DNA of 64,000 nucleotides from Acidimicrobiales bacterium (GTDB taxonomy: Bacteria > Actinomycetota > Acidimicrobiia > Acidimicrobiales > Iamiaceae), in the NCBI GenBank assembly GCA_025463985.1, contig JAODBM010000128.1, positions 1 to 64,000 on the forward strand, given 5' to 3'. The position numbers were made by a program, and so were the translations under genes. Below, one piece after another: positions 1 through 11,108 of this stretch (positions are counted from its first letter, which is position 1; every line of letters starts with the position of its first letter). The notes under the pieces were generated by a model, which was given only the letters and a program-made list of their open reading frames with translations, was not told the origin of the DNA and did not search any database.

Positions 1-345
1 GGCGCCGGGACCGGCGTGCCCTGCGCCAAGACCACGACCGCCGCGCCGTCCACGACGCCGGCCGGGGCGACCACGACCACCGCGGCCGCCGCGACGACCA
101 CCACCGCCCCGTGCGTCCCGGGCGCGACGGGCACGACGAACCTGGCCAACGCGAACGGCGCGGTCAACCTGCCCAACAGCGCGCTCGGCAGCGCCGACCT
201 CGGGGGCGGTGGAGCCCGGGCGGTCGCGGCCAGCCGCGGCACCGGGCCGAGCAACCAGGACGCGATCCTCACGATCCTCGAAGGGGCGGTGGCCTGCGCG
301 ATCGGCATGGCGCTGGCCGGGCGGCGGCGGGGGGCCGACGGATGA
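1..345 (+). CDS. C-terminal end of a Thr/Ala-rich membrane-anchored protein (5' truncated by window)
   Basis: The reading frame is open from the first base and ends at TGA 343-345, leaving 115 visible residues. The first half is a low-complexity Thr/Ala/Pro linker of the kind found in wall-spanning stalks. A short Asn/Gly-rich part with LPNSA follows, and then a hydrophobic segment (about residues 86-107) ends in Arg-Arg-Arg. This shape fits a surface protein held by a C-terminal membrane segment. The last bases overlap the start of the next gene (ATGA at 342-345), so the two are probably co-translated with the PstS-like and sortase-like genes downstream. No domain is recognisable in the visible part. 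Confidence 0.6.
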   Translation, partial: GAGTGVPCAKTTTAAPSTTPAGATTTTAAAATTTTAPCVPGATGTTNLANANGAVNLPNSALGSADLGGGGARAVAASRGTGPSNQDAILTILEGAVACAIGMALAGRRRGADG

Positions 346-2129
346 TGGCCAGCGCGCGCCGCCGCGCCGCGACGCCCGTCGCAGGGGCCGGCCTCCTCTC
401 ACTCGGCCTGATGCTGTGGTCGGCCGGCGCGGCGACGACGGCCAGCTCGGTCACGCCGGCGTCGACGACGACCACGACCGTCCCCGCGGCACCCGCCTTC
501 GCGACGGTGCCGATCAAGGGCGAGGGGAGCTGGGGTCCCTACAAGGAGATCGTCACCTGGCAGAACGACCTCATCACGTCCAAGCACCCGGTCGACCTCA
601 ACTACGTGAAGACCGGCGACCTGCTCGGGCGGCAGGACTTCGTGTCCGAGCTCACCGACTTCGTGATCTCAGGACCGCCGTTCACGCCGACCGACCTCGG
701 CCACCTCAAGGGCGGCGCGGCCGGGCTCATCGACGCGCCGATCCAGGTCGAGTCGCTGGCCTTCCTCCTCACGCCGCCTTATCCGGACGGCTTCCAGTGG
801 ATCAAGCTCCTCTGCGACCCGACCGACCCGACGATCCCCGATCCCTCGAAGTGCATCCAGAAGCACCAGTACGTCGGCGACATCAAGGTGCCGCCGCGGA
901 ACCTGGCAGCGATGGTGGTCAAGTACTCGGGGACGGGGAACCTGCCGCTCTCGGCCTGGAACCACCCCGACGTGCTCGCCGCGATGGGCGTCGACAACTT
1001 CACCGTCGCCCCCGATGCCAAGCCGGCTCCGGTGAACCGCTCCGACCCCTCGGGCACCGACTACTTCCTCCAGCAGTTCATCAAGCAAGCGGCGCCCGAC
1101 GTGTGGGCCGGCCTCCAGAAGGAAGACCCCGCGATCCACTGGGAGCCCATCACCGAGCGGCTCGCCCGGCAGGGGAGCGCGAGCCGCCAAGGCGTCGACC
1201 AGCAGTCGCTCACCCTCGGGCTCGGCGGCGTCGACCCCGCGACGGGCGGCCTGTCCGGGTTCACGGCCGGCACGCTCGCGCCGGTGCCCGCCTCGGCGTT
1301 CGCCGTGGTGCACCAGGCCTTCCCCAAGGCGCCGATCACGTTCGTCAAGACCAAGAACGCGGCAGGCGAGTGGGTCGGCCCCACCCCCGACTCGATCTCG
1401 AAGGCCGTCGCGGCCGGCGGCGACGCGCCGCTCTACGCGCTGACCCACAACGTCCCCGGCGCCTATCCGCTCGCGTGGGTGAACCACCTCTACGTGCCGG
1501 CCAAGGGCCTGAGCATCGAGAAGACCGAGGTGCTGGCCACGATGGTCCGCTACCTCGTGACCGACGGCCAGAAGGCGGCCCGGCCCGTCGGTGAAGGCGC
1601 GCTCTCGCCCGAGCTGGTCACCAAGGCCCTGGCCGCGGCCGACACGATCGTCTCGTCGAACTGCGTGGGCGCCGATCGCGCGATACAGAAGGACTCGACG
1701 CCGGGCCCCTACGCGCCGGCGACGGCGGACCTGGCGGAGGTCGGGCCGATGCTGCACTGCGTCGCAGTGGTCAAGCCCACCACCACGACGTCCACCCCGA
1801 CCCCGGTCACGACGGCCCCGCCCGCGACCTACGACACCACCCCGCTGCCGGCGACGCCGACGGTCCCGCTGCCCACCCCGCCGGTCGACACGACGCCGAC
1901 GAGCGCCGCGCCCACCGCGACCACGTCGCCCGCGAAAGCGCCGCCGATCCGGGTCCCGGTCAAGGGCAAGCCGGGGTCGTACTACTTCACGCTGGCGTCG
2001 ATGCCCAGCCCGGTGCCGACGGTCAGCGGGCCGGGGTTCGACCGCTTCGCCGCGCTGCTCGTGGGCGTCGGCGCCTACCTGATCGCGTTCAACCCGGTGC
2101 GCTCGCTCATCGTGCGGCGCCGCTCGTGA
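342..2129 (+). CDS. PstS-like substrate-binding protein with C-terminal membrane anchor
   Basis: The protein has 595 residues starting at ATG 342, which overlaps the previous stop; an ATG three bases on is an alternative. A basic N-terminus and hydrophobic stretch (about residues 8-30) form a signal peptide, followed by a Thr-rich spacer. The region from about residue 50 to 460 has the layout of the phosphate-binding PBP fold: a GEGSW opening, then NYVKTGD and a DFVISGPPFTP block resembling the PstS segment that binds anion. A long Pro/Thr linker (about 480-545) leads to a hydrophobic segment and a closing RRRS. It is therefore probably displayed on the outer face and membrane-anchored at its C-terminus. 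No phosphate transporter permease or ATPase genes are nearby, so a role other than phosphate import is likely. Confidence 0.6.
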   Translation: MMASARRRAATPVAGAGLLSLGLMLWSAGAATTASSVTPASTTTTTVPAAPAFATVPIKGEGSWGPYKEIVTWQNDLITSKHPVDLNYVKTGDLLGRQDFVSELTDFVISGPPFTPTDLGHLKGGAAGLIDAPIQVESLAFLLTPPYPDGFQWIKLLCDPTDPTIPDPSKCIQKHQYVGDIKVPPRNLAAMVVKYSGTGNLPLSAWNHPDVLAAMGVDNFTVAPDAKPAPVNRSDPSGTDYFLQQFIKQAAPDVWAGLQKEDPAIHWEPITERLARQGSASRQGVDQQSLTLGLGGVDPATGGLSGFTAGTLAPVPASAFAVVHQAFPKAPITFVKTKNAAGEWVGPTPDSISKAVAAGGDAPLYALTHNVPGAYPLAWVNHLYVPAKGLSIEKTEVLATMVRYLVTDGQKAARPVGEGALSPELVTKALAAADTIVSSNCVGADRAIQKDSTPGPYAPATADLAEVGPMLHCVAVVKPTTTTSTPTPVTTAPPATYDTTPLPATPTVPLPTPPVDTTPTSAAPTATTSPAKAPPIRVPVKGKPGSYYFTLASMPSPVPTVSGPGFDRFAALLVGVGAYLIAFNPVRSLIVRRRS

Positions 2130-3028
2130 CCACCCTCTACGAGGTGCCGGCGCCGCCGGCCGAGACGGCGGACGGGACACCGACGCCGGCTCCGGCTGCG
2201 ACCGCGGCGCGGCGCGAGCCGGCGGCGGACCCCTGGAAGGCCGACCTCTGGCGCTGGTTCATGCTGACCGCGCTGGCGCTCGTGGCGCTCTCGGTGGCCG
2301 TCGTGTTCCTCGACCACTTCATCGCGCCGGTGTTGGCCCGCGCCCGCCACCGCGCGCTGACCGCAGACCTGCTCGCCCAGCACGGCGCTCCCACGCCCGG
2401 CCAAGCCGCCGGCCTCCTCCAGATCCCCGCGATCGGGCTCAACGCGGTGGTCGTCGAGGGCGACCGCCCCCAGGACCTGCGGGCCGGGCCCGGCCACCGA
2501 CGCGGCACCCCGCAGCTCGGCCAGGCCGGCAACACCGTGCTCACCGGCCACACGAACCGCTGGGGCGCCGACTTCGTCGACCTCGCCAAGCTGGCCAAGG
2601 GCGACCGCATCGTGGTCGAGTCGCGGGTCGGCAGCCCCACCGCCTACGTGGTCACCGTCGTGCAGCAGGTGGGCCACGACGACGTGCGGCTCCTGCGAGC
2701 CTCGACCGACCACCGCATCACGCTCGTCGCCGGCGCCGGCGGCATGTTCTCGCGGCGACGGACGATCGTGCAGGCGGTCTCCGGTTCGAACTTCGGGCTG
2801 AAGCGGGCCGTCCGGCCGATCCCGCCCGACACGGCCGGGCCGCCGTTGGTCGGCAACGTCTACGCGCTGGCGCTGCTGCTGACGCTCGGCGGGGCGGCAT
2901 TCGCGGCGTCGAAGCTGCGCGGGCGGGTGCGCGCGCTGACGGTCGCGATCATGGTCGCGCCCCTCGTCGCGGGCGGCCTGATGGCCCTCCTGCTCGAGGT
3001 CGACCTGCTCCTCCCCGCGTTGCGCTGA
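2126..3028 (+). CDS. Sortase-fold (class E/D-like) membrane protein lacking the catalytic cysteine
   Basis: This 300-residue protein starts at GTG 2126, overlapping the previous stop (GTGA). A Pro/Ala-rich cytosolic N-terminus precedes a membrane segment at about residues 48-68. The sortase domain (about 95-225) shows the usual IPAIGLNAVVVEG start, a GPGH segment and LTGHTN, which holds the active-site His. Class E sortases next have a TLVTC motif carrying the nucleophilic Cys; here the matching segment reads TLVAG, followed by an Arg-rich strand (SRRRTIV) where the catalytic Arg would sit. Two further membrane segments follow at about 245-265 and 275-295. The fold assignment is good. Transpeptidase activity is doubtful because no Cys occupies the active-site position. 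It may act as a pseudo-enzyme or scaffold for the neighbouring surface proteins. Confidence 0.7.
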   Translation: MTTLYEVPAPPAETADGTPTPAPAATAARREPAADPWKADLWRWFMLTALALVALSVAVVFLDHFIAPVLARARHRALTADLLAQHGAPTPGQAAGLLQIPAIGLNAVVVEGDRPQDLRAGPGHRRGTPQLGQAGNTVLTGHTNRWGADFVDLAKLAKGDRIVVESRVGSPTAYVVTVVQQVGHDDVRLLRASTDHRITLVAGAGGMFSRRRTIVQAVSGSNFGLKRAVRPIPPDTAGPPLVGNVYALALLLTLGGAAFAASKLRGRVRALTVAIMVAPLVAGGLMALLLEVDLLLPALR

Positions 3029-3204: not shown

Positions 3205-3834
3205 GTGCGAACGCAGCTCCGAGTTCTCGTCGCAGCAGGAGCCGCCTCCATCGGCTCCTTGCTCGTCGTGGCCCCCGCCCTCGCCGGCAACATCACCACA
3301 CCCTCCACCAACCCGTTCACCGTCCCCGGAGACACGACCGGCGCGCCGCAGGCGTTCACGGTCACCGGCTCCGGGTTCACCGCGGGCCAGCAGATCTACG
3401 TCGAGCAGTGCGACGGCGTGGCGCCGACGACACCCGGCTACCAGGTGACGACGCACTGCGACCTCGGCTCCTCGCCGTCGGCCGCGATCGCCGACTCGAG
3501 CGGCAACGTCACGTTTCCCGCCGCCGACCCCAACCTCGGCTTCACGCCGTTCAAGGGCGTGAGCCCGCAGGGCCAGTTCAACTGCCTGGCGCCCAACGAC
3601 GCCACGCCGAGCAACGGCCTCTCGTCGTACCGGAACTGCCAGCTGCGGCTCTCCAGCAACAACACCGCGACGACCGGCGACCAGGCGTTCATCACGATGA
3701 CGCTCCCCGACGCCGCGACCCCGCCCCCCGCCACCCCCGAGGCTCCCTACGCCGTGCTGCTCCCCCTCGGCGCAGTCGCCGTTGGCGGCGGCCTGTACCT
3801 CAACCGCCGCCGTGCCGCCCGGCACGCCGCGTGA
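3205..3834 (+). CDS. Secreted neocarzinostatin-like Ig-fold protein with PEAPYA C-terminal tail
   Basis: The gene encodes 209 residues from GTG 3205, with AAAGGA four to five bases upstream as ribosome binding site. A signal peptide ends near ALAG (about residue 27). The mature part begins with a strand pattern typical of neocarzinostatin-family domains (TGSGFTAGQQIYVEQC) and has four or more Cys that could form disulfides. The C-terminus is a three-part tail: PEAPYA, a hydrophobic stretch, then RRRAARHAA. Such tails usually direct surface attachment or membrane retention. A possible promoter (TTGTGA, 17 bases, GGTAAT) ends about 50 bases upstream. The function is unknown; the context suggests a cell-envelope protein handled together with the neighbouring binding proteins. 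Confidence 0.6.
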   Translation: MRTQLRVLVAAGAASIGSLLVVAPALAGNITTPSTNPFTVPGDTTGAPQAFTVTGSGFTAGQQIYVEQCDGVAPTTPGYQVTTHCDLGSSPSAAIADSSGNVTFPAADPNLGFTPFKGVSPQGQFNCLAPNDATPSNGLSSYRNCQLRLSSNNTATTGDQAFITMTLPDAATPPPATPEAPYAVLLPLGAVAVGGGLYLNRRRAARHAA

Positions 3835-3856: not shown

Positions 3857-5266
3857 ATGAAGCGCTTCTGGAAGGTCGCGGTCGCCGCGACCGCGGTCCT
3901 CACACCCCTCACCCTCGCCTCCACGGCGAGCGCCACCTCCCCGACGGGTTACGGCTTCGACCTGGCGCCGCACGTCATCGTCGGCGGCGGCTCGGACACC
4001 ACCTACAAGGCCATGGTCGGGCTCACCGACCTCTACCTCGGCTCACCGGGCTGCTTCACCACGACGCAGGTCGGCCCGAACCTCGGCAAGTGCATCACGA
4101 ACAACCCGAACCCGGAGACCAACACGGGGGGCAACTACCAGCACGACACCGTCGCGCAGGCCACGCCCGCCGGCTCGAGCTCGGGCATCGCCTCGCTCAA
4201 CGGGTTCATCCCAAGCGGCCAGGCCAACACCACCTATGCCGGATCGGTCAACTCGGTGCCCAGCTACCTGGGCTCCTCGGCGACCGGACCGAACCTCGAC
4301 TTCGCCCGCTCCTCCCGGGGGCCGAAGACGACCGGTGGCAACGCCATCGGCGGCAACGAGCTCGCCGCTGACACCTTCTGGGGCTACGGCCAGGACGGCG
4401 TCGAGGTGATGGTGTTCCAGGGCCGCTCGAGCATCCAGTCGGCCGGTGGGTCGGCGATCACGCCGACCGAGCTGTACCACATCTGGAACTGCGACTACGC
4501 GAACTGGAGCGACATCCCCTCGCTCGGGATCACCGTCGGCAGCGCCGACGACGGCCCGATCGTGCCGTGGGGCCTGAACTCCGCATCGGGCACGTTCGCC
4601 ACGTTCAACAGCTACATCATCGCCAACGGCGGTGCGCCGGCCAACTGGACGGTGAACGGCCAGACGTGTGACCGCAAGCTGGTGTCCGACGGGACGTTCC
4701 CGTTCGAGAACGACATCAAGCCGCTCATCAACGACGTCGGCGCCGCCAACCTCAGCACCAGCGCGACGTCGACCAACAACCCGAAGAACTGGATCTGGTT
4801 CGGGTCGTACGGCGAGCTGTCGTCCTTCCCCTACAAGGCCAGCTACCCGCTGGGTGGCACCACCTACTCGGCGGTCCCCGCTCCGGTCAACGGCAAGCTC
4901 CCGAGCACGTCGAAGATCCTGTCCAACACGTATCCGATCGGGCGCACGCTCTACCACGTGACCCGCAAGCAGGATGCGGACTGCGTCAAGACCGGCGCCG
5001 GGGCCTGCGACTTCGTCAACCAGCCCGGCCCGGCCATCAACGGCGGGACCGACCTGAACGTCCAGGGTGGCACCAGCGGCATCAGCGGCGCCGTGCGGGA
5101 GTTCACCCGGTTCATCTGCCGGTCCGGCAGCGTTGCCCACGCCACCGATCCCTACACCGGCAACAACTACGCCGGCGAGATCACGGCGGCCGTCAACAAC
5201 GCCGGCTTCACGGTGACGCCGTTCGCGCTCCGAGCGTCCGGCTCCTCGTGCCAGGTGATCAGCTGA
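3857..5266 (+). CDS. Secreted PstS-like periplasmic-binding-fold protein
   Basis: The protein has 469 residues; ATG 3857 is chosen because the signal peptide (MKRF start, hydrophobic core, cleavage near ASA) begins there and an AAGGA lies upstream. The mature protein starts with a VGGGSDTTYKAM segment and contains an FARSSRGP block, both matching anion-binding loops of PstS-type proteins. It has many Asn, Thr and Ser residues and several Cys, as expected for an exported protein. It lacks a lipobox and a C-terminal anchor, unlike the related gene at 342-2129. A strong hairpin follows the stop, so it closes the surface-protein locus. The ligand is unknown; no transport ATPase is adjacent. Confidence 0.6.
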   Translation: MKRFWKVAVAATAVLTPLTLASTASATSPTGYGFDLAPHVIVGGGSDTTYKAMVGLTDLYLGSPGCFTTTQVGPNLGKCITNNPNPETNTGGNYQHDTVAQATPAGSSSGIASLNGFIPSGQANTTYAGSVNSVPSYLGSSATGPNLDFARSSRGPKTTGGNAIGGNELAADTFWGYGQDGVEVMVFQGRSSIQSAGGSAITPTELYHIWNCDYANWSDIPSLGITVGSADDGPIVPWGLNSASGTFATFNSYIIANGGAPANWTVNGQTCDRKLVSDGTFPFENDIKPLINDVGAANLSTSATSTNNPKNWIWFGSYGELSSFPYKASYPLGGTTYSAVPAPVNGKLPSTSKILSNTYPIGRTLYHVTRKQDADCVKTGAGACDFVNQPGPAINGGTDLNVQGGTSGISGAVREFTRFICRSGSVAHATDPYTGNNYAGEITAAVNNAGFTVTPFALRASGSSCQVIS

Positions 5267-5392: not shown

Positions 5393-8300
5393 CTACGACA
5401 GCGAGGCGCGAAGGTCGGCCAGCTGCGCCGCCACCGCCGCGTCGTAGGACGCGACCGAGCCGAGCTTCACGTCCTCGTAGCCGCGCACCAGCCCGGGGAG
5501 CGCGGCGATCGCGGTCGCCGCCGCCAGGTTGTCCGGCCGCAGCGCGCCGAGGAGGGTGTCGACGGTCGTGACGTACTCGGCGGCCAGGCGCCGCTCGACC
5601 ACCCGCACCGGCCCCCGCCCGAACGGATCGAGCCGGGTGCCGCGCAGGCGCCGGGACGCCCGCAGCGTGCGCATGACCGGCCGTCCCCAGCCGCCGACGT
5701 GGATCTTGCGGGCCAGGCCCCGGCTGCGCAGCGCGGGCGGGTGCAGGAGCCACACGGTCCGCCCCGAGGCCGACGGGTGATCGAGCAGGAGGCGGGCCAC
5801 CTCGTACTCGTCCTTGTAGGCGAACAGCTTGTACGCCCCATCGGCCACCGCAACGGCCAACGAGCCGTCGCCTCCGACGGCCTGCTCGGCGCGCCAGGTC
5901 CGGGCCACGAGGTCGAGGAACCGGGTCGCGAGACGGCGGTCCTGATACGCGATCAGCTCGGAGCCGAGCAGCGCGATGTGGTGCTCGTGGTCCTTGGGCA
6001 GCTCGTAGGCAGCAACCAGGTCGGTCACGTCGGCGGCGGGCCCCGGCTGGCCAGCGGCGGCCGGGAGCTGGCCGGCGGCCCACGCCCGCCCGAGGTCGAA
6101 GGCGGCGCGGTTGGCGTCGACCGCGACGCCGTTCTGGTCGATGGCGGCTTCGAGCGCGCCGGCCGAGACGGGCAGCAGGCCGAGCTGGCACGCCACGCCG
6201 AGCAATGCGACGTTGGCGGCCGCGGTGGTGCCCGTGGCCCGGCGGGCGAGCTCGTCGGCGTCGACGAACGTGGCCGCGCCGGCGCGCACCGAGCGGGTGA
6301 GGAGCTGCTCGAGCTCGGCGACCGGCACCCGTCGCTCGCCCAGCCCGAGGATCATGGGCCCGCTCAGCGAGCTGGCGAGCGAGCCGACCACCGCGGTGCG
6401 CTCGGGCGACGCGCCCTCCAGCGCAGCCGGGCGGGTGGCGGCCACGAGGTCGGCGGCGAGGAGGACGTCGACCTCGTCGGGCCCGAGCACGTTGGACCGC
6501 TCGGCCGCGCCGTCGCCGATGCGCAGGTCGGAGATCACCGCACCCGCCTTCTGTGACAGGCCCGTCTGGTCGAGGCCCCACACCTCCAGGCCGTCCAACA
6601 TGGCGGCGCGGGCCAGCAGGTGCGCGGCGGTCACCACGCCGGTGCCGCCGACGCCGGCGATCCGCACTGAGAGCGGTCGGTCGATCCGTAGCACCACGGC
6701 GTCGGGCAGCGCGGTCGGGTCGACGACCTCGACCTCGCCGGTCGGCGCCGCGCCCGCGACCAGCGTGAACGCCGGGCAGTCGCCGGCGAGGCACGAGAGG
6801 TCCACGTTGCAGGACTCCTCGTCGATCCTCGTCTTGGGGCCGAAGGCGGTGTCGACGGTCTGCAGGGACAGGCAGTTCGACTTCGTCTGGCAGTCGCCGC
6901 ACCCCTCGCAGACCCGCTCGTTGATGACCACTCGATGGATCGGCTTCGGCGCGAGGCCACGCTTGCGGGCCCGCTTGAGCTCGGTCGCGCACGCCTGGTC
7001 GTGGATCATCACGGTGACGCCGCGGACCGCGGCCAGCTCACGCTGCACGTCGATGACCGCGTCTCGGTCCCGGACCGACGCGCCGGCCGGCAACCGTGCT
7101 CGGCGGTACTTGGCCGTGTCGTCGGTGGTGATGATCACCTGCTTGGCGCCTTCGAGCATCAGCAGCTTGGTGAGGTCGAGGACCGCCATCCCACCGGCCA
7201 CGTTCTGGCCGCCGGTCATCGCCGAGACGCCGTTCCACAGGATCTTGAAGGTGATCGAGACGTCGGCGGCGATGGCGGCGCGCACTGCGAGGTGGCCCGA
7301 GTGGAAGAACGTGCCGTCGCCGAGGTTCTGCACGATGTGCGGGTCCTCCACGAACGGCGCCATGCCGATCCACTGGGCGCCCTCGCCGCCCATCTGCGTG
7401 ATGCCGATGCTCTGACCGACCCGCTCCTCGGGCATGAACCGCACGATCGAGTGGCAGCCGATGCCCGCGCCGACCAGCGTCCCTTCGGGCACGGTGGTGC
7501 TCACCGAGTGCGGGCACCCCGGGCAGTACCACGGCACGCGGCTCGCGGTGGTGACCGAGATCATCTCGCGCTTGCGCGGCGGCGCGATGAGGTCGCCGTC
7601 GAGCCGTGCCGCCAAGGGGCCGTGGAGGATCCGGGCCAGCGACGCTGCGTCCAGCGAGCCGTGCCGCGGGATGAACGGGGCGCCCTCGCGGTCACGCCGA
7701 CCCCACACCACCGGCCGGTCGGGATGGCTGGCCAGCAGGGCGCGCACCTGGTGCTCGACCAGCTCGCGCCGCTCCTCGACGACGAGGACGTCGTGCGCGT
7801 CCCGTCCGACCTCGGCGGCGAACCCGGGACCGATCGGGTAAGGCATGCGGATCTCGCTCACCCGCACGCCGAGGTGGGCCAGCGCCGCCTCGTCCAGCCC
7901 GAGCAGCCGCAGCGCCTCCAGCAGGTCGGTGACGACGGTGCCGCTCGCGACCAGGCTGATCCGCGCCCGGCGGGGCTCGACCAGCACGCGGTTCAGGCCG
8001 TTGGCGTCGCCGTAGCGGGCCGCGGCGTCGAGCCGCAGCGTCAGGACCTCGGGCTCGCGCGCCAACGTCGTGGGCGTCAGCAGGTCGCCGCTCACCGCGC
8101 TGGCCTCGAAGCCCGCGGGGAGCACGGGCACGATCGGATCGCCCACGACGACCGTCCCCTCCGCGTCGGCGATCGTCGTCACGAGCTTCATCGCGACCCA
8201 CGCCCCCGAGTAGCGCGAGAGCGCGGCCGCGTGCTGCCCGAGCTCGAGGACGTCCGAGAGCGTGCGGGGGAACAGGACCGGCATGCCCAGCTCGGCGAGC

Positions 8301-8788
8301 GCACCCTCCGAAGCGCTGGGCAGGGTCGAGGACTTGGCCGCCGGGTCGTCGCCGACGAGCGCGATGGCCCCGCCGTGACGGCTCGCGCCCGCGAAGTTCG
8401 CGTGCCGCAGGGCATCCATGCTGCGGTCGAGGCCCGGCGCCTTGGCGTACCAGACGCCGAGCACACCGTCGTAGCGAGCCGAGGCCAGCGTCGACGCGAG
8501 CTGGCTGCCCATCACCGCGGTGGCGCCGAGCTCTTCGTTGACTCCGGGCTGGTGGACGATGTCGACGCCCACCGTCGGCAGCACGCGCTGCAGCTCGCGA
8601 TCGAAGCCCGCCAGCGGCGAGCCCTGGTAGCCGGAGACGAAGGCCGCCGTGCGCAGGCCGCGCTCGCGGTCGCTCTTCAGCACCTCGACGAGGAAGCGGA
8701 TCGTGGCCTGCACGCCCGACAGGTGCGCCGTGCCCGGCCGCACCGGATCCGACGGAGGGGTGAGCCTGGACGTCTCGGTGAGCACCAT
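5393..8788 (-). CDS. Indolepyruvate:ferredoxin oxidoreductase, alpha/beta/gamma fusion
   Basis: This 1131-residue fused 2-oxoacid:ferredoxin oxidoreductase oxidatively decarboxylates aryl-pyruvates or related 2-oxoacids to acyl-CoA, passing electrons to ferredoxin. The N-terminal pyruvate-ferredoxin domain contains HQPGVNEELGA. The thiamine diphosphate region has CPGC and GIGCHS (about 410-445) and GDGTFFHSG (about 490). A CEGCGDC cluster (about 626) plus a second Cys group (about 655-670) resembles a 4Fe-4S site. The gamma domain starts with GVGGTGVV (about 710). The length agrees with the fused family (about 1150). The start at ATG 8788 leaves a 59-base divergent promoter shared with the Lrp-type regulator, which probably controls it. 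Confidence 0.9.
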   Translation of the reverse strand: MVLTETSRLTPPSDPVRPGTAHLSGVQATIRFLVEVLKSDRERGLRTAAFVSGYQGSPLAGFDRELQRVLPTVGVDIVHQPGVNEELGATAVMGSQLASTLASARYDGVLGVWYAKAPGLDRSMDALRHANFAGASRHGGAIALVGDDPAAKSSTLPSASEGALAELGMPVLFPRTLSDVLELGQHAAALSRYSGAWVAMKLVTTIADAEGTVVVGDPIVPVLPAGFEASAVSGDLLTPTTLAREPEVLTLRLDAAARYGDANGLNRVLVEPRRARISLVASGTVVTDLLEALRLLGLDEAALAHLGVRVSEIRMPYPIGPGFAAEVGRDAHDVLVVEERRELVEHQVRALLASHPDRPVVWGRRDREGAPFIPRHGSLDAASLARILHGPLAARLDGDLIAPPRKREMISVTTASRVPWYCPGCPHSVSTTVPEGTLVGAGIGCHSIVRFMPEERVGQSIGITQMGGEGAQWIGMAPFVEDPHIVQNLGDGTFFHSGHLAVRAAIAADVSITFKILWNGVSAMTGGQNVAGGMAVLDLTKLLMLEGAKQVIITTDDTAKYRRARLPAGASVRDRDAVIDVQRELAAVRGVTVMIHDQACATELKRARKRGLAPKPIHRVVINERVCEGCGDCQTKSNCLSLQTVDTAFGPKTRIDEESCNVDLSCLAGDCPAFTLVAGAAPTGEVEVVDPTALPDAVVLRIDRPLSVRIAGVGGTGVVTAAHLLARAAMLDGLEVWGLDQTGLSQKAGAVISDLRIGDGAAERSNVLGPDEVDVLLAADLVAATRPAALEGASPERTAVVGSLASSLSGPMILGLGERRVPVAELEQLLTRSVRAGAATFVDADELARRATGTTAAANVALLGVACQLGLLPVSAGALEAAIDQNGVAVDANRAAFDLGRAWAAGQLPAAAGQPGPAADVTDLVAAYELPKDHEHHIALLGSELIAYQDRRLATRFLDLVARTWRAEQAVGGDGSLAVAVADGAYKLFAYKDEYEVARLLLDHPSASGRTVWLLHPPALRSRGLARKIHVGGWGRPVMRTLRASRRLRGTRLDPFGRGPVRVVERRLAAEYVTTVDTLLGALRPDNLAAATAIAALPGLVRGYEDVKLGSVASYDAAVAAQLADLRASLS

Positions 8789-8803
8789 GGGCAGATGGTC
8801 GAG

Positions 8804-8868
8804 TATCTTCGGTGTTAGCGCAACAAGTTCGAAGGAGATTCTGAACTATGGGTGAGCAGCCGAAGATA
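8804..8868. promoter_or_regulatory. Inverted-repeat operator pair in the divergent oxidoreductase/Lrp promoter
   Basis: TATCTTCGG at 8804-8812 is matched by its exact reverse complement CCGAAGATA at 8860-8868, 56 bases apart centre to centre. One copy lies between the divergent starts and the other inside the first codons of the Lrp gene. This spacing, about five helical turns, suits wrapping by an Lrp-type octamer and autoregulation. A GAAGGAG ribosome binding site for the regulator sits at 8831-8837. Confidence 0.5.
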
Positions 8869-9318
8869 AGTGAGATCGACCTCGCCCTGATCGGCCTCTT
8901 GCAGAAGGATGCGCGGCGCACCAACCGCGAGCTGGCCGAGACGGTCGGCATCGCGCAGTCGACGTGTCATGAGCGCGTGCGCAGCCTGCGGGCCCGCGGC
9001 ATCATCCGCGGCTGGCACGCCGACGTCGATCCGGCCGCGCTCGGCCGTCCCATCAGCGCGCTCGTCAGCGTCCGGCTGCAGCCCAAGACCACCGCGAGCG
9101 TGCGGGCCTTCCAGCACGATCTCCTTCTGGTGCCCGAGACGCTCGCGGTGTGGATGGTGTCGGGCGCCGACGACTTCGTGGTCGAGATCGCCGTCCCCGA
9201 CGTCGGGCGCGTTCGGGACTTCGTGCTCGAGCACGTCACGAGCCGGCCTGATGTGGTCGACGCGCGGACGGCGCTCGTCTACGAGCAGGCGCGTGCGCCG
9301 TTCGTGGCCCCGCTCTGA
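8848..9318 (+). CDS. Lrp/AsnC-family transcriptional regulator
   Basis: The 156-residue length is typical of the family. An N-terminal winged helix (about residues 8-60) includes the opening I-D-x-x-L-I-x-L-L-Q-K-D-A-R and a recognition-helix segment TVGIAQSTCHERVR. The C-terminal RAM/ligand domain (about 70-145) has the expected alternating strands. The start ATG 8848 has a good GAAGGAG site ten bases upstream. It is transcribed divergently from the indolepyruvate oxidoreductase, so it probably senses an amino acid or 2-oxoacid and controls that gene. An inverted repeat flanking the promoter supports this. Confidence 0.9.
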   Translation: MGEQPKISEIDLALIGLLQKDARRTNRELAETVGIAQSTCHERVRSLRARGIIRGWHADVDPAALGRPISALVSVRLQPKTTASVRAFQHDLLLVPETLAVWMVSGADDFVVEIAVPDVGRVRDFVLEHVTSRPDVVDARTALVYEQARAPFVAPL

Positions 9319-9340
9319 GCCACCCCGCCCCGAGGCACGC

Positions 9341-9910
9341 TCACGACGCGGCCGCGGCCGCGGGCGTGGGCGCGGGCGGCCACGGGTGGTGGGGGAGCCC
9401 CTCGCCGTCGAGCGTGCGCAGCGCGGCGGGCACCATGCCGCCCCACCAGCCGACCACCAGGGCCAGCTCGAGCGTCGCCTCGGGCCCGAGCCGCTCCAGC
9501 AGCGCGGCCCGAGTCGTCGTCAGGTCGCGGCGGTCGAGCAGGTCGTCGGCGAACCGCCGCGCGAGCTGCAGGTCGGCATCGTCGAGGTCCTGGCCCTGCG
9601 CGAGCAGTGCGCAGTCGTCGGGCGTGAGGCCCGCGGCGAGCGCCATCGGCTCGTGCTCGTGCCACTCGTAGCCCAGCTGGTGCCGGTGGGCGAGGTGCAG
9701 GATCACCGCCTCCCGCACCCGGGGCGGCAGCGCTCCTTCGTGCAGCAGCGCGGTGCTCAGCAGCACGAAGGGTCGGAACGCGCGGCCCGCGTTGGCCATC
9801 AGCCGCAGGATCGGCAGGTCGTTGCCGGAGCGCTCGAGCTTCTCGAGGATGCGCTGGACCTCGCCGTCGGTGTCGGCGGCGCGGCGCTGGCCGAACGTGC
9901 CCTCGGTCAT
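9341..9910 (-). CDS. Carboxymuconolactone decarboxylase (CMD)/AhpD-like protein
   Basis: The 189 residues hold an alpha-helical CMD-type fold. The helix with REAVILHLAHRHQLGYEWHEHEPMA matches the family core, in which a Glu and a downstream His often take part in catalysis; the CxxC of peroxidase-type AhpD is absent. The tail is Ala/Pro-rich. It is the last gene of a minus-strand run that begins with another CMD-fold gene at 12949. Its substrate is unknown; the neighbours (thiolase, DUF35, alpha/beta hydrolase) suggest side-chain or ring degradation of a CoA-linked compound. Confidence 0.75.
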   Translation of the reverse strand: MTEGTFGQRRAADTDGEVQRILEKLERSGNDLPILRLMANAGRAFRPFVLLSTALLHEGALPPRVREAVILHLAHRHQLGYEWHEHEPMALAAGLTPDDCALLAQGQDLDDADLQLARRFADDLLDRRDLTTTRAALLERLGPEATLELALVVGWWGGMVPAALRTLDGEGLPHHPWPPAPTPAAAAAS

Positions 9911-9941
9911 CGCGGGCGCCTTCCCATGCGCTGGGTGGCCA

Positions 9942-11108
9942 TCAGCCGTCGGACCGGAGCATCACGCCCCCCGAGTTGAAGAACATGCCGCCCGGAGCGA
10001 CGAGCGCGTGCCGGGCGCCGGCCACCTGGCGGGCGCCGGCGGTGCCACGCAGCTGATCGACGGCCTCGCGGAAGTGGTTGGAGCCCTGCACGCCGCCGTC
10101 GGAGAGGCTGCCGCCGTGCGTGTTGACCGGCACCCGACCGCCCAGCAGCAGCCGGTTGGTGGCGGCGTCCCAGCTGTCGTCGAACAGCGCATCGGCCTCG
10201 CCGTCCCCGCAGAAGCCGAGCGCCTCGAACCAGCGCACGCAGATGATCGTGAAGCCGTCGTAGGGGAAGAAGACGTCGATGTCGTCGCGGCGGACGTCGC
10301 TGCGCCGCCACATCTCGCGGGCCACGATCTGCTGGCCGGTGTGGCCGAGGTCGGTCACCTGGTCCTCGTAGGGCAGGTCCGTCTGGCCCATCACTGCGGC
10401 GTGGATGAGCACCGGGACGTGCGGGAGGTCGAGGGCCCGCTCCGTCGACGTCACGATGAAGGCGTCGGCGCCGTCGACCGGATAGTCCATGTCGAAGGCG
10501 GTAAGTGGCTCGCGGACCATGCGAGCCGAGAGGTAGTCCTCCATCGTCAGCGGCTTGCGCATCGCCGCGTGCTCGTTGGCGATCGCGTTGGACCGGCTGT
10601 TGATCGCGACCTTGCCGAACACCTCACGGCCCACGCCGAACTGCTCGAGGTATCGCCCGGCCCACGGCGCGTAGCCCACGGGCGAGGCGAACGTGTCGGG
10701 GTCGGAGGCGAGCACGTTGAAGCCCGGCCCGGCACGCTCGCGGAACGGGTCCGCGATCGCCGAGCGCGAGACGCCCGTGGCCCGGTAGTTGCCGTGGTAC
10801 ACGAGCACGGTCTGAGCACTGCCGGCATGCACCGCGTTCATCGCCTCGATGAGCTGGTGCTGGAACGGTACGGTCGGGTTGGCCCACCACGTGCATGCCG
10901 GGATGCCGAGCGCTCCCTGCACTTGATGAGCGGGGATGACGCGGTTCGACCCGCAGAGTCCGTCGATCTCGTCCCGCTCGATGCCGGCGTCGCGGATCGC
11001 CGCGATGCACGCCTCCAGCACGAGGCTGGCCGAGGTGCGGCCGCTGTTGCGCGAGTACTCCGTCGTGCCCAGACCGACGATCGCCACCCGGTCCTTGATG
11101 TCGCTCAC
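9942..11108 (-). CDS. Thiolase-fold lipid-transfer/Ltp2-like protein (thiolase or retro-aldolase)
   Basis: The protein has 388 residues from GTG 11108, which overlaps the stop of the DUF35 gene (GTGA). It opens with RVAIVGLGTTEYSR, the usual start of SCP2/lipid-transfer thiolases. The region where degradative thiolases have their nucleophilic Cys carries none (TWWANPTVPFQHQ), while a VNTHGG motif near the C-terminus is kept. This pattern, with a DUF35 partner encoded directly upstream, resembles Ltp2 retro-aldolases of steroid side-chain degradation, which cleave beta-hydroxyacyl-CoA-type intermediates. A thiolytic role cannot be excluded. It is probably the catalytic half of a two-subunit enzyme. 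Confidence 0.75.
   Translation of the reverse strand: MSDIKDRVAIVGLGTTEYSRNSGRTSASLVLEACIAAIRDAGIERDEIDGLCGSNRVIPAHQVQGALGIPACTWWANPTVPFQHQLIEAMNAVHAGSAQTVLVYHGNYRATGVSRSAIADPFRERAGPGFNVLASDPDTFASPVGYAPWAGRYLEQFGVGREVFGKVAINSRSNAIANEHAAMRKPLTMEDYLSARMVREPLTAFDMDYPVDGADAFIVTSTERALDLPHVPVLIHAAVMGQTDLPYEDQVTDLGHTGQQIVAREMWRRSDVRRDDIDVFFPYDGFTIICVRWFEALGFCGDGEADALFDDSWDAATNRLLLGGRVPVNTHGGSLSDGGVQGSNHFREAVDQLRGTAGARQVAGARHALVAPGGMFFNSGGVMLRSDG

Follow-up and report, generated by a model that had tools for sequence, protein, structure and literature searches.

The window, 64,000 nucleotides from the start of a contig (C99) of an Acidimicrobiales bacterium, begins inside gene A, which encodes a PstS-type protein and is followed by genes B to E on the same strand (Table 1). 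Four-nucleotide overlaps join A to B (ATGA at 342–345) and B to C (GTGA at 2126–2129). Gene C starts with GTG, and its frame is intact with no internal stops. The part of gene A present in the window encodes a Thr/Ala-rich linker, GPSNQDAILTILEG, a transmembrane (TM) segment and an Arg tail. The protein of gene B scores 52 bits against TIGR00975, under the cut-off of that family. Its AlphaFold2 model (mean pLDDT only 67) has M. tuberculosis PstS-1 as the top Foldseek match (probability 1.00, E 4e–16), and a PstS fold is predicted for it on the strength of this model. We found no LPxTG, LAxTG or other LxxTG motif in its tail. Gene B of the window retains NRSDPSGT, whereas most of its homologues lack the phosphate-binding motif R-x-D-x-SGT that A proteins keep; such motif-poor B proteins, PstS-like in fold, are encoded for example in loci L070 (6160–7908) and L083 (5524–7668). 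Gene D ends in PEAPYAVLLP followed by a TM segment and an Arg tail. A homologue of gene E in locus L073 reaches 70 bits against TIGR02136 and 45 bits against PF12849.

Table 1. Genes and residues at the start of the window
Feature	Position	Strand	Remarks
Gene A, C-terminal end, PstS-type	1..345	+	Tail like the A proteins of loci L070 and L035
Gene B, 595-aa protein, predicted PstS fold	342..2129	+	Signal peptide, Thr/Pro-rich linker, C-terminal TM
Gene C, 300-aa Cys-less sortase-fold protein	2126..3028	+	N-terminal TM, sortase domain, two C-terminal TM helices
Sortase domain of gene C	2417..2776	+	PF04203, E 3.5e–22; genome scan match 2417–2776
Arg125, at the position of class E Tyr229	2498..2500	+	From alignment
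His142, catalytic His position, kept	2549..2551	+	Within LTGHTN
Gly203 (codon GGC), at the catalytic Cys position	2732..2734	+	TLxTC motif reads TLVAG
Arg212, catalytic Arg position, kept	2759..2761	+	Within FSRRRTIV
Gene D, 209-aa secreted surface protein	3205..3834	+	Weak chromoprotein/neocarzinostatin-like domain, NF040680 20 bits (below cut-off)
Gene E, PstS-like protein, secreted, no TM anchor	3857..5266	+	TIGR02136 27 bits (below cut-off)

The cysteine is the defining residue of sortases. An earlier note on this DNA had read gene C as a sortase-fold protein that keeps its active-site His and lacks this residue, and the comparisons bear it out. Residues 98–217 match the Pfam Sortase family PF04203 with 78.9 bits (cut-off 26.6). 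The AlphaFold2 model, built from 53 sequences, is sortase-like (mean pLDDT 84.3, about 86–96 in the sortase core), and Foldseek matched it to solved sortases in the PDB with probability 1.00 and E down to 2e–12. The alignment places Gly203 at the Cys position. Another Cys reaching the active site, the outcome that the note had named as contrary to its reading, is excluded within the chain, as there is no Cys in the entire 300-residue protein.

Class E enzymes are among the best sequence matches of gene C with a solved structure. SrtE1 of Streptomyces coelicolor (PDB 5cuw; PMC5148588) is alike in fold, in its N-terminal TM topology and in the positions of His and Arg. However, gene C lacks the catalytic Cys, an aromatic at the position of Tyr229 and an LAxTG partner in its locus, which is likely a pst locus, and its 69.4 bits against NCBIfam class_E_sortase fall far under the cut-off of 160. 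Tyr229 of SrtE1 lies in the beta3/beta4 loop and has been proposed as the reader of LAxTG in class E (PMC5148588). An aromatic occupies this position in 104 of 108 class-E-type sortases with Cys versus 0 of 28 Cys-less proteins.

Within the order, the full-length proteins closest to gene C are Cys-less as well (TLVTS, TLITS, TLVSS). A profile of the family gives at least 241 bits for Cys-less homologues and at most 158 for ordinary sortases, and the clade numbers at least 28 sortase-fold proteins. Over 28 members, in the most divergent of which the alignment columns are partly uncertain, the Cys site holds Ser in 18, Ala in 7, Thr in 2 and Gly in 1, the His site holds Arg in 13, His in 12, Lys in 2 and Ala in 1, and the catalytic Arg is retained in 17. 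In trees computed with the catalytic columns omitted, the window protein groups with the other Cys-less members on one branch (SH-aLRT 99 for the order and 98 for the phylum, within the limits set by long branches and about 105 columns). Of the label "class E-like" the fold stands, but the proteins form a separate clade that also lacks the LAxTG-reading aromatic and often His and Arg; the His of the window protein is real but no hallmark of the clade.

Among five close relatives dN/dS is 0.14–0.30 for gene C, which indicates purifying selection, and 0.13–0.19 for gene B. Gene C could be a decaying pseudogene or the product of a sequencing error, GGC being one base away from a Cys codon. We give this virtually no chance, as the clade shares the loss over many genomes, with changes in adjacent residues too, intact frames and a low dN/dS. 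A lone mutation or a pseudogene was ruled out by the homologues and dN/dS together, and the note had rightly judged that the gene does not look like one. The Cys-less proteins form an old, maintained family, very probably of dead enzymes, spread across Actinomycetota. That they retain an enzymatic activity, using Ser or some other residue as the nucleophile on a new sorting motif, is very improbable. The frequent Ser at the Cys position would suit such an activity, as would the His and Arg kept in the group closest to the window protein, but the window protein has Gly and others have Ala or Thr, His and Arg disappear piecemeal, and we found no common tail motif on the partner proteins. From sequence comparison, the gene C protein is very probably not a sortase enzyme, and a role other than transpeptidation, as the earlier note had supposed, is the best reading and well supported by comparison.

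To place the family in its genomic context, sortase-domain proteins were collected with their flanks and scored for the residue in the Cys column and for the distance to pst genes. Order-wide, 148 domains were obtained, 21 Cys-less and 127 with Cys. In this set, which includes some loci picked for their proximity to pst, 15 of 21 Cys-less domains lie within 6 kb of pst genes versus 4 of 127 Cys-containing ones. The remaining six Cys-less loci are cut by contig ends, and two of these have a matching pst half on another contig. Because of the way some order-wide loci were picked, we made a separate sample of 36 genomes, selected for a low number of contigs and not for the Cys trait, in which all PF04203 hits were taken (40 genomes reduced to 36, with G041, G071, G079 and G162 omitted before their regions were read). 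Here 6 of 6 Cys-less domains are linked to pst versus 1 of 100 with Cys (Fisher test, P-value 4e–9). A phylum-wide search added seven Cys-less members, of which five lie outside the order. In neighbourhoods of 14–20 kb, annotation puts pst genes, A/B-type proteins or both next to six of the seven; at the seventh (G398), on a stretch with no usable gene annotation, a pstC/pstA-like sequence adjoins.

Complete loci, such as L070, read pstC-pstA-pstB-A-B-C-D-E. Here A is PstS-type and B a divergent PstS-like protein, both with a C-terminal TM segment, C is the Cys-less protein, D a surface protein with a PEAP tail and E a secreted PstS-like protein. In L080, L083 and L230, B and C are instead found upstream of pstC. 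Across Actinomycetota a large, membrane-anchored PstS-fold protein adjoins the Cys-less gene, and the Cys-less homologues for which the note had proposed a search have PstS-like genes beside them wherever both flanks are present. We are highly confident, on these comparative grounds, that the Cys-less clade has a dedicated tie to pst loci. The surface-protein operon proposed earlier therefore stands as to its coupling to an anchored PstS-like gene but not as to its generic nature: once neighbourhoods were read, the generic link was replaced by one to an extended Pst phosphate-uptake locus.

The window contig itself carries no pst genes, and the pst linkage of the window copy rests on an inferred join with a second contig. 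Genes A, B, D and E of the window match the pst loci of relatives. In the same genome (G000), contig C111 (locus L039) has the order C'-response regulator-pstC-pstA-pstB-A and stops within the low-complexity linker of A, and the window contig begins in a linker of the same kind. The 423 aa encoded by the C111 fragment and the 114 aa in the window add up to 537 aa, while homologues of A measure 528–546 aa. In G167 and G072 the assembly is interrupted at this site or close to it, and a different contig carries the pst half. The missing 5' part of gene A is thus probably the end of C111, and the two contigs likely meet within the linker of A. This would unite the window locus with pst genes. The join would probably put two Cys-less copies in one pst locus, C' (TLVTSAAG) being the second Cys-less copy of this genome. 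The genome also has two Cys-containing sortases (L001, L002).

The position of C' beside a response regulator and pstC could point to a sensor, whose basic pocket would bind phosphate or an anionic polymer of the wall and signal to the Pst/Pho system. Such a pocket could be made up of the Arg that 13 of 28 members have in place of His, the catalytic Arg retained in 17 and a Ser. However, the window protein has His and Gly and not a double-Arg pocket, and several clade members lack the Arg; we consider a sensor unlikely.

Two pst loci (L088 and L089) carry an intact class-E-type sortase, and in these A and B are tagged with LAYTG, LSFTG or LAFTG before the TM segment. Both loci hold several LAxTG-tagged proteins, PstS-like ones included, which are possible wall-anchored phosphate-binding proteins. 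At 26 Cys-less loci, in contrast, we found one marginal LxxTG tag among 45 A and B tails, which show TM anchors, and no shared tail motif on the partner proteins. The catalytic Cys, the LAxTG-reading residue and the tags are thus lost together. We regard this as a correlation rather than a line of descent, because the intact pst-linked sortases branch away from the Cys-less clade and are not found beside it in trees. At one Cys-less pst locus, L090, small surface proteins with LARTG and LSRTG tags persist (7300–9057, 8667–10547).

The tails also bear on whether the gene C protein acts as a regulator or competitor of an active housekeeping sortase, by shielding A and B from cleavage or by forming a mixed complex. 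The genome does encode the Cys-containing sortases L001 and L002, and A and B retain a sortable-looking TM segment with an Arg tail. Yet A and B carry no LAxTG to protect and the gene C protein has lost the LAxTG-reading aromatic, which makes such regulation improbable.

Our best explanation, to which we give an even chance, is that gene C encodes a pseudosortase, i.e. a catalytically dead, membrane-bound protein dedicated to the extended Pst system of Actinomycetota, where it would act as a non-catalytic scaffold. The sortase fold seems to have been taken over for nutrient transport. The groove or surface of the pseudosortase would hold the C-terminal stalk or TM region of the tail-anchored A and B without cleavage, and A and B would thereby stay uncleaved and grouped beside the PstCA permease. 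Binding to A, B or PstCA is putative; chaperone, scaffold and signalling roles are indistinguishable from these data, a scaffold being the most likely of them. Against a scaffold, gene C and the PstS-like gene might lie side by side only because they share a regulon, and L090 shows that a Cys-less locus can still have LSRTG/LARTG-tagged proteins.

An assembly scaffold of this kind would have its closest functional parallel in the pseudo-signal-peptidase SipA of streptococcal pili. SipA of Streptococcus pyogenes has a signal-peptidase fold without catalytic residues and is essential for pilus polymerisation (PMC4049620). The likeness would be one of working: a dead secretion or surface-display enzyme, kept beside the proteins it serves and proposed to bind a surface partner. 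The fold and the process differ, and SipA is essential by experiment, whereas a role of this kind for gene C is putative.

In a canonical Pst system PstS is a single soluble or lipid-anchored protein, and a sortase-fold protein is, to our knowledge, absent. The loci described here share pstC, pstA, pstB and PstS-type proteins with PstSCAB but differ in having a sortase-fold protein and several proteins of the PstS-like type, of which two are tail-anchored. More tentatively, and somewhat short of an even chance, pseudosortases phylum-wide may be a structural subunit of the actinobacterial Pst complex and the first non-catalytic sortase-fold protein, serving nutrient transport instead of anchoring to the wall, with two copies in some loci, probably that of the window included. 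We found no earlier description of inactive or pst-linked sortases in open-licence full text or in family libraries, neither of which is all-covering. Given a maintained Cys-less clade tied to phosphate transport, the proteins annotated as sortases by Pfam would include a separate non-catalytic family, and the Pst systems of these Actinomycetota would have unrecognised subunits. The two natural arrangements, an intact sortase with LAxTG-tagged PstS-like proteins and a dead one with untagged, TM-anchored proteins, make a shift from anchoring machinery to scaffold directly testable.

D proteins (in the window and in L035, L036, L037, L038, L074, L078, L088 and L089) have a C-terminal signal of their own in common, PEAPxAxLLP (PEAP or PETP) followed by a TM segment and an Arg tail. 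This signal differs from LPxTG and PEP-CTERM, and it occurs in pst loci of both kinds, Cys-less and Cys-containing.
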